NCBI GenBank assembly: GCA_902729315.2 | Contig: LR746276.1 | Coordinates: 6,323,169 to 6,387,168, forward strand | Direction: 5' to 3' | Origin: Spirodela intermedia | Taxonomy: Eukaryota > Streptophyta > Magnoliopsida > Alismatales > Araceae | Length of the DNA: 64,000 bases | The notes under the pieces: model-generated | Database searches by the model: none | Told to the model about the DNA's origin: nothing | Seen by the model: only the letters and a program-made list of their open reading frames with translations | Shown: positions 29,781 through 45,726 of the stretch, one piece after another | How positions within the stretch are numbered: position 1 is the first letter of the stretch | How the letters are laid out: each line of letters begins with the position of its first letter | Translations under genes and position numbers: made by a program

Positions 29781-30909
29781 ATGGCGTTCAGGTCGCAGCA
29801 GCTGTATAAGAAGATGGTGAAGAAGGTGGGGGATTCGGTGCCACCGAAGGTGATGGAGTCGATGAAGAAGAGCCTTCCGAACTCTAAGCTCGTCATGGGA
29901 AGGGCCAACCGCGGCATCTTCGCTGGCCGTCATATCCAGTTCGGCAACAACGTTAGCGAGGACGGGGGCAACAAGTAGGCTACTTTACCCCTTACATCAT
30001 ATCAGATTTTCCTTGCCTGCTGTCACGAGATCTTGCCAAGTTGTGATTTTTTAGCTGCGATTCTGTCTTCTCGGTTTCTGTCAGATGAAAGCTGCACGCG
30101 TAGGATGAGCTAGTTCCTTCTAGGGTTTCCGGCGATCTCTCAGAACGGTCGACAGCTTCAAGAATCTCGTCTTGCTTGATGAGAAGATGAGAGGCGACAA
30201 AATTCCTACAGTGTCATGATTTGATCGACTGCTGGTGTTGAGCCTTGGATTGCATGAGCTCAGATCAGGGCTAGCTTGCCTGCTCAAGGAAACCCTAATA
30301 GGGGCTAGATAGCTTTCAGGAAGGAAACCCGTTTCCTGTGTGGAGAGCTGAATCAATTCCAACCCATTAGTTTGCTTGGCCATTTTTGAAATCGCTTAGC
30401 TGAAGCTTCGTGTGTGATGCCCAAATCTCTAGCAAAAGGATTTTTTTAATTTTTATTTTTAATGAGGGTTAGAGTTGGCTAAGAAGAGATCAGAAGTGGC
30501 CATCCTCAACATGGGCGCTGAACTGGCAGAGTCTTCCGCTCTTGGCCTCTGCAGGACCCGGCGGACATGGAAGCCAAACGTGCAGGAGAAGCGGCTCTTC
30601 AGCTACGCCCTCGACCGGCACATCCGGGTGAAGGTGACGACGCACGCCCTGCGGTGCATCGACAAGGCGGGCGGCATCGACGAGTACCTGCTGAAGACTC
30701 CCTACCAGCGGATGGACACGGAGATGGGTCTGCTGTGGAAGGCCAAGATCGAGAAGCTGTACCAGGAACTCGGGCAGGCGGAGGCCTTCTTCTTCTCCCC
30801 CGAAGAGGAGGCGAGGATCGAGGCCGGGTTCGAGGAGTACCGAGCCGCCAGGAGGGCTGCCAAGAAGAGCTCAAGCCAAGACCCGGCGGCGGAGGGAGGA
30901 GCTTCGTGA
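29781..30909 (+). CDS. Mitochondrial ribosomal protein bL28m
   Basis: This is a large-subunit protein of the mitochondrial ribosome. Exon 1 (29781-29974) and exon 2 (30555-30909) join in phase 2 into 182 residues. The core (GRANRGIFAGRHIQFGN, then RRTWKPNVQEKRLFSYALD and IRVKVTTHALRCIDKAGGID) is the L28 fold as found in plant mitochondrial L28/L24-type proteins, followed by an acidic and basic C-terminal extension. The donor reads AA|gtaggc and the acceptor ctgcag|G. The left outer border of the large palindrome (30415) lies inside the intron, so this complete copy has both exons while its mirror copy at 45232-45586 has only exon 2. No cleavable presequence is evident, as in other plant members. 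Confidence 0.92.
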
Positions 30910-31131
30910 TTGGCATTGGCGGCGCCTCTTCCTTGTTTGACGGGGCATGTTTGACCTTCCCCCCGCAGACTTCCTGGAGAACTTTGATGATTTCTGTATC
31001 AAACAAATCATGCCAAAATCTTCGCCTGCTCCTCCGCCGGCGCATCTCCTCAGGAAGATCATTCATGGTAACTCGCGCACTGGCGAGTGACAGTCTTCTA
31101 CTTAGCGGTTGACCCCAGCGACGGCTAAGAA

Positions 31132-31483
31132 AAGTCAATGGGAACAGATTTGGTGGGCCTCGTCAGAGTGGGATTTGGTTGGCCCGTTTGATTTCTTGGT
31201 GTCCATTGCAGTGGCGAATGGGGTCAAGCCCATACGCTGTGGTAATTCGCGGGCCGGGCCCATACGTAGGTGAGAGTAATTGAGCCCCACGAAGGGGGCC
31301 CGGCCCTACTAAGTTGCTAGTGCTTATTGGACTATCCGTAATGGGCCGTCCTTATTGGGTTACCATGGAAGCGAATGGAATAAACTCACGTCGAATAAAT
31401 ATCCAGGGTTTTCTACCTTCCCCGCTCTCTCGCAGCGGCGCCGCTCCTCTTCACGCACGCAGCGGCGCTTCCCAGAGCCCGGC
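31132..31483 (+). promoter_or_regulatory. RPS11 promoter with site II-type elements
   Basis: The region upstream of the RPS11 ATG contains TGGGCC at 31154-31159 and 31342-31347 and its complement GGCCCA at 31257-31262. These are site II elements, commonly found in promoters of plant cytosolic ribosomal protein genes and bound by TCP-type factors. The diverged RPS11-B promoter at 45991-46255 (minus strand) is recognisably similar and keeps several GGGCC/TGGGCC elements. An identical copy lies in the right palindrome arm (44658-45009). Confidence 0.6.
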
Positions 31484-33602
31484 ATGGCGGAGCAGGTCGG
31501 AGGGCATTCCTTGTTTCCTCACTAAGATCATTTACTCATCGTGCTGTCACCATTACAATGATTCCTTCGACTTTCGTTGTCATGCTCTTCGATCTTCGTA
31601 TTCATTTTCTCTCTGGATTTGAGAGTTGTATGATATCAGCCGAGATGTGGATAGACTGTAAGCCAAATCTCGTTCGTGTTAGCTCCTGTCTGATCGCAAT
31701 ACTAGGGAAGGAAGGAGGGACAGGCGGACTGAGGGACGAGAGGAGGCTTTTTTTCGCTTGTTCGCACCTCGCCATTAGTGGACTTATTTTTTCGCTTGCC
31801 CTTTGTCTTTTTTAATGTTTTAGTAAATCCTGTTTTTGCAGACTGAGAAGGCTTTTCTCAAACAACCAAAAGTATTCCTCTGGTATGATGGACTGAGATT
31901 TACATTTTTTAGTCTGTCGATTATTTTGCGACCTCTTTTTTGTGCTATTATTTCTGAGTAGCAAGGTTGTATGATTCTTTTGCCGACAATGTGGTCGCAG
32001 CTCAAAGAAGTCTGGGAAGGGGAAGAGGCCCGGCAAGGGTGGCAACCGTTTCTGGAAGAGCATTGGTCTCGGCTTCAAGGTTCCAAAGGAGGCAATCGAA
32101 GGTTCATATGATTTTCCCGTCTCATGAAAATTTTATTTTTCTCTTTTTTTAACGTGGTAGGCTCAGGTATTTTATAAATTAAAGGAATATTCTATCTTGA
32201 CTGTATTGGAGGCAAGGCCCTACTGTGATAGGCATTAAATCGTGTGGTATAATTCATAGGATTCATATAGCATAGGAATTGGATGCTCATAGATAATTTT
32301 ATGAAGAAATGATGTCTCGTGAGTGCATTTTTCTTGTTCATAGTAGTAATAGACTTTGGGCCACGTAGTTTTTCACGTCTTGTACAATATTCCACTGCAA
32401 GTGTGAGTGAAGTGATCGGTATCATTCTTTTACTCTTTTCATGTATATCCATCATATTTCTTATCCTCGAGTGATGATTACAAATTTGATCTTCTGTGCA
32501 AAGTCCATTTCACTGGCATTGTTGTGTGGTCTGTTGTTCTTCTAGAATCTTCCCTTTATTGGTTCCGTCTGTAGTTGAATATAATACCACAGAAATATTT
32601 TTTATTTCGCGTTTGGCTGAAACTAGGGAAGTCATGTCCCGGACTTGTTGATGTACTAATGTTTCTGTGTTGAATTCTTAGGATGGGCGAGGTAATATAC
32701 CATTTCAAATGTCTTCTATTCTCCCATGCAGTGTCCTATATCTTATTTAATGAAAAATCTACTATTCGTGATCTGATTTTGTATGGGTGGTTTGATTAGC
32801 GGACCTCAACGGGTGTTGTTGTTTTTTATTTTTTTAAAAATCCAGGAACGTACATTGACAAGAAGTGCCCATTTACTGGTAATGTTTCTATCAGGGGCCG
32901 TATCCTGAGTGGGATATGCCACAGTGCTAAGATGAACCGAACTATCATTGTTAGAAAAGACTACCTTCACTACATCAGGAAATACCAAAGGTACTAGTAG
33001 TATGTGGAGTGCACACTTACTCTCTTTCCCTCATCTCACCATAACCTGAATAGTTCTCACACAGCTGCTCTCTCTGCCACTCGTCGTCTCAGGTACGAGA
33101 AACGACACTCCAACATCCCGGCACATGTTTCTCCTTGTTTCCGTGTGAAGGAGGGAGACCATGTCACTATTGGGCAGTGCAGGTAATCTTGTCCCCATTA
33201 CTGACCATTCCCAGTCATATATAATATAGAACTCTCCATGAGATATCTCGCCTATTTCCGTGGATGATGGTTGTGAGCTGCTTTCCTAGAATGGAAAATA
33301 CCCGTGTTATTTTTCTTTGGATGGAAAAGCACCGAATCAGATGAATTCACTGCTCCATGCAACTAGATAGCCCAAAAATCTGATCGATCGATTCATTCTT
33401 CATATAATGGTCCGTGTTGGATGATGGGTTTGCACGGCTTAAGCTCTTATTTAGGTCTAATAATAATCTAATTATGTGCAGCTGATTTGATTTATTTTTT
33501 TCTCGACACAGGCCATTGTCAAAGACGGTTAGGTTCAACGTTTTGAAGGTGATCCCAGCAGGATCAGGTGCTGGGGGCAAGAAGGCGTTCTCTGCATTTT
33601 AG
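31484..33602 (+). CDS. RPS11: Cytosolic 40S ribosomal protein S11 (uS17), copy A
   Basis: This is a core small-subunit ribosomal protein. Six exons (31484-31495, 31842-31882, 32001-32101, 32846-32990, 33093-33182, 33512-33602) give 159 residues, the usual length. Diagnostic segments are [44 protein letters not shown], the uS17 block [22 protein letters not shown] and the basic-aromatic end GGKKAFSAF. Exon 1 is a minimal MAEQ exon, typical of plant RPS11. All introns are GT-AG with consistent phases. An identical copy lies convergently on the other palindrome arm, and fragments of a diverged third copy flank the palindrome. No missing residue is seen, so it should be functional. Confidence 0.96.
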
Positions 33603-44657: not shown

Positions 44658-45231
44658 GCCGGGCTCTGGGAAGCGCCGCTGCGTGCGTGAAGAGGAGCGG
44701 CGCCGCTGCGAGAGAGCGGGGAAGGTAGAAAACCCTGGATATTTATTCGACGTGAGTTTATTCCATTCGCTTCCATGGTAACCCAATAAGGACGGCCCAT
44801 TACGGATAGTCCAATAAGCACTAGCAACTTAGTAGGGCCGGGCCCCCTTCGTGGGGCTCAATTACTCTCACCTACGTATGGGCCCGGCCCGCGAATTACC
44901 ACAGCGTATGGGCTTGACCCCATTCGCCACTGCAATGGACACCAAGAAATCAAACGGGCCAACCAAATCCCACTCTGACGAGGCCCACCAAATCTGTTCC
45001 CATTGACTTTTCTTAGCCGTCGCTGGGGTCAACCGCTAAGTAGAAGACTGTCACTCGCCAGTGCGCGAGTTACCATGAATGATCTTCCTGAGGAGATGCG
45101 CCGGCGGAGGAGCAGGCGAAGATTTTGGCATGATTTGTTTGATACAGAAATCATCAAAGTTCTCCAGGAAGTCTGCGGGGGGAAGGTCAAACATGCCCCG
45201 TCAAACAAGGAAGAGGCGCCGCCAATGCCAA

Positions 45232-45586
45232 TCACGAAGCTCCTCCCTCCGCCGCCGGGTCTTGGCTTGAGCTCTTCTTGGCAGCCCTCCTGGCGGCTCG
45301 GTACTCCTCGAACCCGGCCTCGATCCTCGCCTCCTCTTCGGGGGAGAAGAAGAAGGCCTCCGCCTGCCCGAGTTCCTGGTACAGCTTCTCGATCTTGGCC
45401 TTCCACAGCAGACCCATCTCCGTGTCCATCCGCTGGTAGGGAGTCTTCAGCAGGTACTCGTCGATGCCGCCCGCCTTGTCGATGCACCGCAGGGCGTGCG
45501 TCGTCACCTTCACCCGGATGTGCCGGTCGAGGGCGTAGCTGAAGAGCCGCTTCTCCTGCACGTTTGGCTTCCATGTCCGCCGGGTC
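45232..45586 (-). pseudogene. bL28m exon 2 copy lacking exon 1
   Basis: This is the mirror copy of bL28m exon 2 with its splice acceptor and part of the intron (to 45726). Exon 1 was not included in the duplication, so the copy cannot make bL28m. Upstream on the same strand now lie intron 1, exon 1 and the promoter of RPS11-B. The sequence is identical to the functional exon, so it has not decayed. Confidence 0.9.
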
Positions 45587-45726
45587 CTGCAGAGGCCAAG
45601 AGCGGAAGACTCTGCCAGTTCAGCGCCCATGTTGAGGATGGCCACTTCTGATCTCTTCTTAGCCAACTCTAACCCTCATTAAAAATAAAAATTAAAAAAA
45701 TCCTTTTGCTAGAGATTTGGGCATCA

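Follow-up and report, generated by a model that had tools for sequence, protein, structure and literature searches.

The window, by which we mean the whole 64 kb stretch of DNA analysed here, harbours a palindrome whose two arms are identical over 6134 bases and diverged at the inner edges that border the spacer, with private changes on both sides. The palindrome has ancestral as well as new junctions and carries intact genes. On balance, we regard this structure as the probable product of a two-step history, in which an older inverted rearrangement was followed by recent copying of one side onto the other. The palindrome is composed of the following parts.

30415-36691, forward strand: left arm, which matches the right arm without difference over 30415-36548 and has its diverged inner edge at 36549-36691.
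36692-39448, no strand: spacer of 2757 bases; contains the R segment, stretch 36805-37326 and the 5' portion of a copia element.
39449-45726, reverse strand: right arm, the reverse complement of the left; free of differences over 39593-45726, with its diverged inner edge at 39449-39592.

Self-BLAST and base-by-base comparison throughout the 64 kb aligned 30411-36691 with 39449-45730 at 99.90% identity over 6282 columns, with 5 mismatches and 1 gap, so that kilobase-long inverted arms more than 99% identical surround a spacer. When arm positions were paired base by base about the sum 76141, segment 30415-36548 was found to match 45726-39593, read as reverse complement, at all 6134 bases, with 0 mismatches and 0 gaps. 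A (GA)n run of 16 bases is located at 34723-34738 and 41403-41418. The first-pass annotation, which reported inverted arms around a 2.76 kb spacer and mirrored positions summing to 76,141, was thus reproduced by self-BLAST nearly as described. Its further statement that all compared blocks are identical holds for the 6134 bases and fails for the inner 143, where 4 substitutions and 1 indel were detected. The palindrome is not a chance match, because the runner-up self-match listed within the 64 kb extends over only 632 columns at 76%. Past the outer limit no homology was found (local score 12, attained by 151 of 200 shuffles); mismatch 30414/45727 belongs to a 4-base outer tail in which three of four bases match. 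The spacer includes a single-copy part, 36805-37326, whose single match in a genome search is itself, while the rest is comprised of the R segment and the repeated copia element. Neither tRNAs nor Rfam families at gathering score were found within the window.

Genes and gene remnants associated with the arms are the following.

29781-30909, forward strand: bL28m gene; exon 1 (29781-29974) outside the left arm, exon 2 (30555-30909) inside.
31484-33602, forward strand: left copy of RPS11 (uS17), gene model with six exons, 159 aa.
42539-44657, reverse strand: right copy of RPS11, six exons, with the same coding sequence as the left copy and convergent with it.
45232-45586, reverse strand: orphan copy of bL28m exon 2, situated in the right arm with no exon 1 of its own, mirror of 30555-30909.
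45788-46074, reverse strand: third RPS11, a relic with 5' UTR, exon 1 and the start of intron 1.

Exons of the left RPS11 copy are positioned at 31484-31495, 31842-31882, 32001-32101, 32846-32990, 33093-33182 and 33512-33602. Introns are of the GT/AG type and the reading frame is intact in both copies, in agreement with the initial description of two convergent, identical genes. Pfam models Ribosomal_S17 and S17_N were matched in two exons, and residues 1-158 match plant uS17 chains with E-values down to 2.1e-95. Comparison with a paralogue at C13:5.315 Mb (dN 0.019, dS 1.15) indicates purifying selection on RPS11, which concerns the history of the gene before doubling and not each copy since. 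Stop codons of the two copies are 8.9 kb apart. In the relic, exon 1 comprises an ATG at 45990, MAEQ and a GT donor; 195 of 270 aligned bases are identical to the arm copy, and exons 2-6 were not found alongside it. The bL28m gene matches Arabidopsis bL28m (6xyw; E 2.6e-77). A putative chimeric gene spanning the outer junction of the right arm was considered and set aside; in it, relic exon 1 would be spliced out of frame to bL28m exon 2, leaving an open frame of 189 codons.

Remaining features are related to the copia element and to the left inner junction.

34779-36691, reverse strand: truncated copy (3' part) of the same copia element, in the left arm.
36690-36804, forward strand: R segment, 115 bases, which agrees with the RPS11 3' region (33626-33741) at 104 of 115 aligned positions.
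37327-41362, forward strand: old Ty1/copia element, unbroken through the right inner junction.

Judged by what crosses them, one junction of every arm is ancestral and the other new. The left outer junction is ancestral because the two-exon bL28m gene runs across it, and a genome search returned one exon 1 and two exons 2. The right inner junction is likewise ancestral because the Ty1/copia element continues through it, as it does in all eight copies compared. This element consists of a 5' LTR (37327-37554), gag/protease remains, RT/RNase H remains and a 3' LTR (41135-41362), with a deletion at 39387/39391. Its LTRs are 83.6% identical to each other, the Pfam match to RVT_2 is under the curated cut-off and that to Pol_BBD over it, and three of five bases agree in the putative target-site duplication, as read by eye. 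A chimeric element, with 5' and 3' parts of different origin meeting at the inner junction, is not supported, since no lasting step in identity was observed: mean identity to the eight family copies is 85.0% in 39001-39390, 84.5% in 39391-39592 and 87.8% in 39593-39850. The value for the 3' LTR is lower (81.1%), and family copies are 88.5% identical among themselves.

At the left inner junction, the R segment overlaps the arm by 2 bases (TA); aligned to its RPS11 3' source, it has 11 differing bases in 115 and a gap. The right outer junction adjoins the older RPS11 relic, 72% identical, and flank 45731-46700 has a single match in the genome search, itself. Because R is 90% and the 5' region of the relic 72% similar to the arm copy, R need not derive from the relic. 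A single relic spanning both new junctions was also rejected, as the best local alignment between the arm gene and the joined flank and spacer covered nothing but R. The pairing of an ancestral and a new junction in each arm, the copia part, the bL28m exon and the relic at the right junction had all been overlooked in the first-pass annotation.

The proposed order of events is based primarily on the inner edge. Segment 36549-36691 contains 4 substitutions and 1 one-base indel in 143 bases, against none in the adjoining 6134; under an even spread of differences the probability would be (143/6277)^5 = 6e-9, for a boundary picked after the data were seen. To polarize the changes, the eight best-scoring copia copies (best 8 of 25 matches outside the locus) were used as an outgroup. 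Two changes are private to the left arm, T>G at 36549 (T in 8/8 copies) and a one-base deletion at 36627 (base present in 8/8). T>G at 36624 is private to the right arm (T in 8/8). At 36584 six of the eight copies have C, like the right arm, and at 36616 seven have C, like the left arm, so the simplest placement of these C/T changes is left for the first and right for the second. Since private changes exist on either side, both inner edges changed after separating. A diverged edge beside 6134 identical bases therefore favours recent copying atop an older inverted repeat over a simple young duplication. The suggestion that such a palindrome must be very young or actively converted thus named the right alternatives; it missed the diverged edge, which speaks against simple young duplication. 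No more than five differences underlie this argument; one of them, the indel, falls in a T run, and nanopore consensus also produces changes of this kind.

The order of events and the mechanism, as well as the presence of the palindrome in the living plant, we infer as follows. In the first step, an older inverted rearrangement around copia would have turned round the 5' part of the element together with its flank, leaving an inverted repeat that comprised the 143-base inner edges and perhaps more, and R would lie at its breakpoint. Much later, one side would have served as template for the other in homologous recombination: a strand would have invaded in or next to the diverged copia edge, and copying would have proceeded outward over 6134 bases. 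Copying could have been break-induced replication, in which case a small inverted repeat would have been extended into the present palindrome and a non-homologous join within the RPS11 relic would have closed the event. Alternatively, gene conversion between the arms would have erased differences in an already existing long palindrome. Either would yield two intact, identical, convergent RPS11 genes and the orphan bL28m exon. Break-induced extension would give the same picture as conversion, with 4 substitutions in 143 bases versus 0 in 6134. At 2.8-3.5% divergence, an unconverted outer edge of ~84-105 bases could escape notice. The narrower proposal that the palindrome was born by homology-seeded break-induced replication, with a small diverged inverted repeat, a remnant of an older inversion, as the primer from which a single repair event copied 6.13 kb outward, a complete ribosomal-protein gene included, up to a non-homologous join, is offered tentatively, as less likely than not. 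If true, a mostly clonal plant would have gained a gene copy in one step, conversion could then keep the resulting arm pair alike, and convergent read-through could yield RPS11 double-stranded RNA. The type of event is already known; among the literature matches listed no title concerns this locus, which does not prove that nothing has been published on it.

A single young event, in which a replication template switch built the whole palindrome by copying arm and spacer inversely and rejoining beyond, with the inner edge mutated by error-prone synthesis near the junction, seems to us rather unlikely. It would account for the 6134 identical bases, for the TA common to both sides of the left inner junction, where R resembles a templated insert, and for the pairing of an ancestral with a new junction in each arm, which fits two switches. 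At the right outer junction three of the four tail bases match, any overlap there being readable only from the original continuation of the relic. It is at odds with the right-only change at 36624, and probably 36616, in the arm with the ancestral inner junction, where no repair synthesis is expected, and the 11 differences and gap in R are too many if R arose in the same event. Less probable still is fold-back of a broken end into a hairpin with the spacer as the loop, followed by repair to a distal piece; we give it very little credence. The spacer length is within the range reported for human inverted duplications (766-70466, median 3428, in the part of PMC3907307 consulted), but fold-back keeps both junctions of the original arm ancestral, while here the ancestral ones, left outer and right inner, are on opposite arms, and a later flip of the spacer by arm-arm recombination would be needed.

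An assembly artefact, i.e. an arm misjoined or repeated by the MaSuRCA hybrid assembly, for example between haplotypes, is improbable, if less so than fold-back. The base-perfect identity over 6134 bases is compatible with it, as is the size of the draft if the clone is 8410 (191.9 Mb before filtering vs 136.6 Mb in the final version, heterozygous duplicates having been removed). Nanopore reads of 10-425 kb (62-fold, mean 32 kb) exceed the 15.3 kb structure. The inner edges, differing by changes on both sides, look like separate DNA. The two new junctions are at unlike places, one of them ending in a relic of the same gene, a pattern that a fold-back read does not give. None of these points is read-level evidence. 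Simple misassembly by such a read was dropped as a leading view on account of the 2757-base spacer, the differing inner edges and the dissimilar new junctions.

A perfect palindrome is commonly attributed to youth or to conversion, and there is seldom much evidence to decide between the two. Here the copied stretch adjoins the diverged edge, so that the change from divergence to identity is located to within the first difference (36548/36549) and is testable in other clones. The contrast between the identical 6134 bases and the inner edge is independent of mutation rate. Spirodela reproduces for the most part asexually (PMC7645714). For the sister species S. polyrhiza, PMC7642947 puts the SNP mutation rate at an estimated 8.39E-11 per base for each generation; with a different assumption about detection power, the estimate becomes 5.13E-10. 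The upper bound of divergence over the 6134 bases is 0.049%, which at these rates allows ~2.9 or 0.5 million generations. With such slow rates, identical arms therefore need not be recent in absolute time.

The closest plant parallel is the W chromosome of willow (Salix purpurea), with large palindromes and evidence of gene conversion. As far as the cited part of that report goes (PMC7023750), it shares with our locus the plant nuclear location, kilobase arms, genes in the arms and LTR retrotransposons inside; four willow arms are on average >99% identical, and the W.P1 spacer is a few kb, as here. Willow arms are ~20 kb and longer and belong to a sex-determination region, whereas here there is one 6.3 kb pair with no known sex linkage. 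Human inverted duplications and ODIRA inverted CNVs including DUP/INV-NML, as presented in extracts of PMC3907307 and PMC10766186, are likewise inverted copies with a single-copy spacer of a few kb and short shared junction sequence, and template insertions are considered for complex breakpoints. Unlike them, our locus has ancestral junctions on opposite arms, arms of just 6.3 kb and a diverged inner edge. Inverted gene pairs in Caenorhabditis are also convergent, their arms, intergenic DNA included, reach 100% identity, and gene conversion was proposed in the sections used (PMC1803023); that case was argued across species, ours from one diverged edge within one genome. In Arabidopsis, PAI (tail-to-tail) and VIM (head-to-head) are also neighbouring inverted homologous genes, and their repeats are reported, in the portion of PMC13213937 cited, to make siRNAs and to affect homologues; such effects would be conjectural for the RPS11 pair, with its stop codons 8.9 kb apart.

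As read in the assembly, the palindrome consists of a left arm (30415-36691, +), a spacer (36692-39448) and a right arm (39449-45726, reverse complement). Self-comparison of the window aligned 30411-36691 with 39449-45730 at 99.90% identity over 6282 columns, while the runner-up among the matches listed in the 64-kb window extends over 632 columns at 76%. Across 6134 bases (30415-36548 = 45726-39593) there are 0 differences and 0 gaps. A single arm mismatch is located in a 4-base tail at the outer limit of the palindrome, and the remaining four, together with the only indel, fall in the innermost 143 bases (36549-36691; 39449-39592 on the right), referred to here as the inner edge. 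The genome searched comprises 136,496,439 bases in 32 contigs. We infer that it derives from S. intermedia clone 8410, for which the published account, as far as consulted, gives an assembly of 136.6 Mbp in 70 scaffolds (the largest, Si09, of 13.4 Mbp), built with MaSuRCA from Illumina pairs together with 307,111 nanopore reads (10-425 kb); from a draft of 191.9 Mb, duplicates of heterozygous regions were then taken out (PMC7645714).

Features of the window referred to in the text:
10115-11524, +, UDP-glycosyltransferase family open frame
27477-29243, +, GMC oxidoreductase family open frame
29781-29974, bL28m exon 1, left of the palindrome
30555-30909, bL28m exon 2, within the left arm
37327-41362, Ty1/copia element, old
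49782-50852, -, AMP-binding enzyme family open frame

The window also holds a 288 aa open frame with a Rad51 domain, of the recombinase family (61580-62446, -), ~16 kb from the palindrome; this proximity is probably coincidental.

Each arm carries one complete RPS11 (uS17) gene, which is split into six exons with GT/AG borders in all introns and encodes 159 residues. The two genes are convergent, their coding sequences are identical, and residues 1-158 match plant uS17 chains. Whole-genome protein search revealed, besides the arm copies, one paralogue on the same contig ~1 Mb off (C13:5.315 Mb), and one lone weak exon-3-like match (C6:5393145-5393264, 63% identical). Comparison of the arm gene with the paralogue gave dN 0.019 and dS 1.15, indicating past purifying selection on the lineage of the arm gene. 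Codon 18 (31842-31882 / 32001) is Cys in both arm copies and Ser in the paralogue.

The left outer junction lies within the two-exon bL28m gene, whose joined exons encode a protein matching residues 1-180 of 182 of Arabidopsis bL28m. In the genome search, exon 1 had one match and exon 2 had two, and this junction is thus ancestral, the right arm having an orphan exon. Likewise, copia sequence runs on through the point matching 39449 in 8/8 related copies fetched (the best-scoring 8 of 25 matches outside the palindrome locus), which marks the right inner junction as ancestral and the left-arm copia sequence as cut off at 36691. LTRs of the element are 83.6% identical, compared with 88.7-96.5% in four other copies measured. 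It is without ~860-910 bases at 39387-39391 and ~125-140 bases near 40344 that are present in related copies.

The left arm adjoins an RPS11 3'-like piece, R (36690-36804), at its inner junction, where the overlap is two bases, TA. R is identical to the RPS11 3' region 33626-33741 in 104/115 aligned bases, with one gap, and for the rest of the left end of the spacer (36805-37326) the genome search gave a single match, to itself. A third RPS11 gene is present as a relic past the right outer junction, with its alignable part ending at 45788, ~60 bases from the arm. The relic comprises the 5' UTR, ATG at 45990, MAEQ, a GT donor and the start of intron 1, and shares 195/270 aligned bases with the arm gene (score 64; 0/100 shuffles above 20.5). 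Neither DNA nor protein search recovered its exons 2-6, and genome search found no second copy of the flank 45731-46700. At the right outer join, just a broken 4-base tail is held in common; the true overlap depends on how the relic originally continued and may differ from this. On the same strand, relic exon 1 is upstream of the orphan bL28m exon (45990-45029, -); the predicted splice would put bL28m out of frame yet yield a 189-codon open frame.

The five inner-edge differences were assigned to sides by comparison with the eight copia copies. Two changes are clearly left-only, one being an indel in a T run, and one is clearly right-only; two C/T changes are most simply placed one per side. 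Private changes on left and right show that both edges changed after separating. The four substitutions in 143 bases (interval for 4 of 142, 0.8-7.2%) adjoin 6134 bases with none (upper bound 0.049%). Were changes spread evenly, the probability that all of them fell within the inner 143 bases would be ~6e-9, a guide only, since the boundary was set after the data were seen. The simplest reading is that 6.1 kb was recently copied between the two sides, beside an older inverted repeat.

The anatomy described above is observed, the mechanism and order of events are inferred. In one reading, an older inversion would have left a short inverted copia repeat, inside which break-induced replication could have started, copying outward to bL28m and ending at the RPS11 relic. 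If the arms were instead homogenized by conversion, a long palindrome would have pre-existed and its differences would have been wiped up to the outer limit. A diverged stretch is visible at one end only, which leans towards extension by break-induced replication; the two are not separated, because at 2.8-3.5% divergence 84-105 bases of outer edge could have escaped conversion and stay unseen. R has 11 substitutions against four in the inner edge (Fisher p 0.03, computed on 114 and 142 bases). If R was made in the first event, this excess would be consistent with the edge having been converted earlier; R could also predate that event.

Among known systems, the W palindromes of willow are the closest plant case in the literature consulted (PMC7023750). 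Human inverted duplications have spacers of similar size, but the fold-back described for them should leave the two ancestral junctions on the same arm, unlike the arrangement here (PMC3907307, in the part consulted). Convergent pairs in Caenorhabditis show a similar concerted likeness, there across species (PMC1803023, likewise), and by analogy with the inverted gene pairs of Arabidopsis, as described in the portion consulted, small RNAs may be a consequence of the palindrome (PMC13213937).
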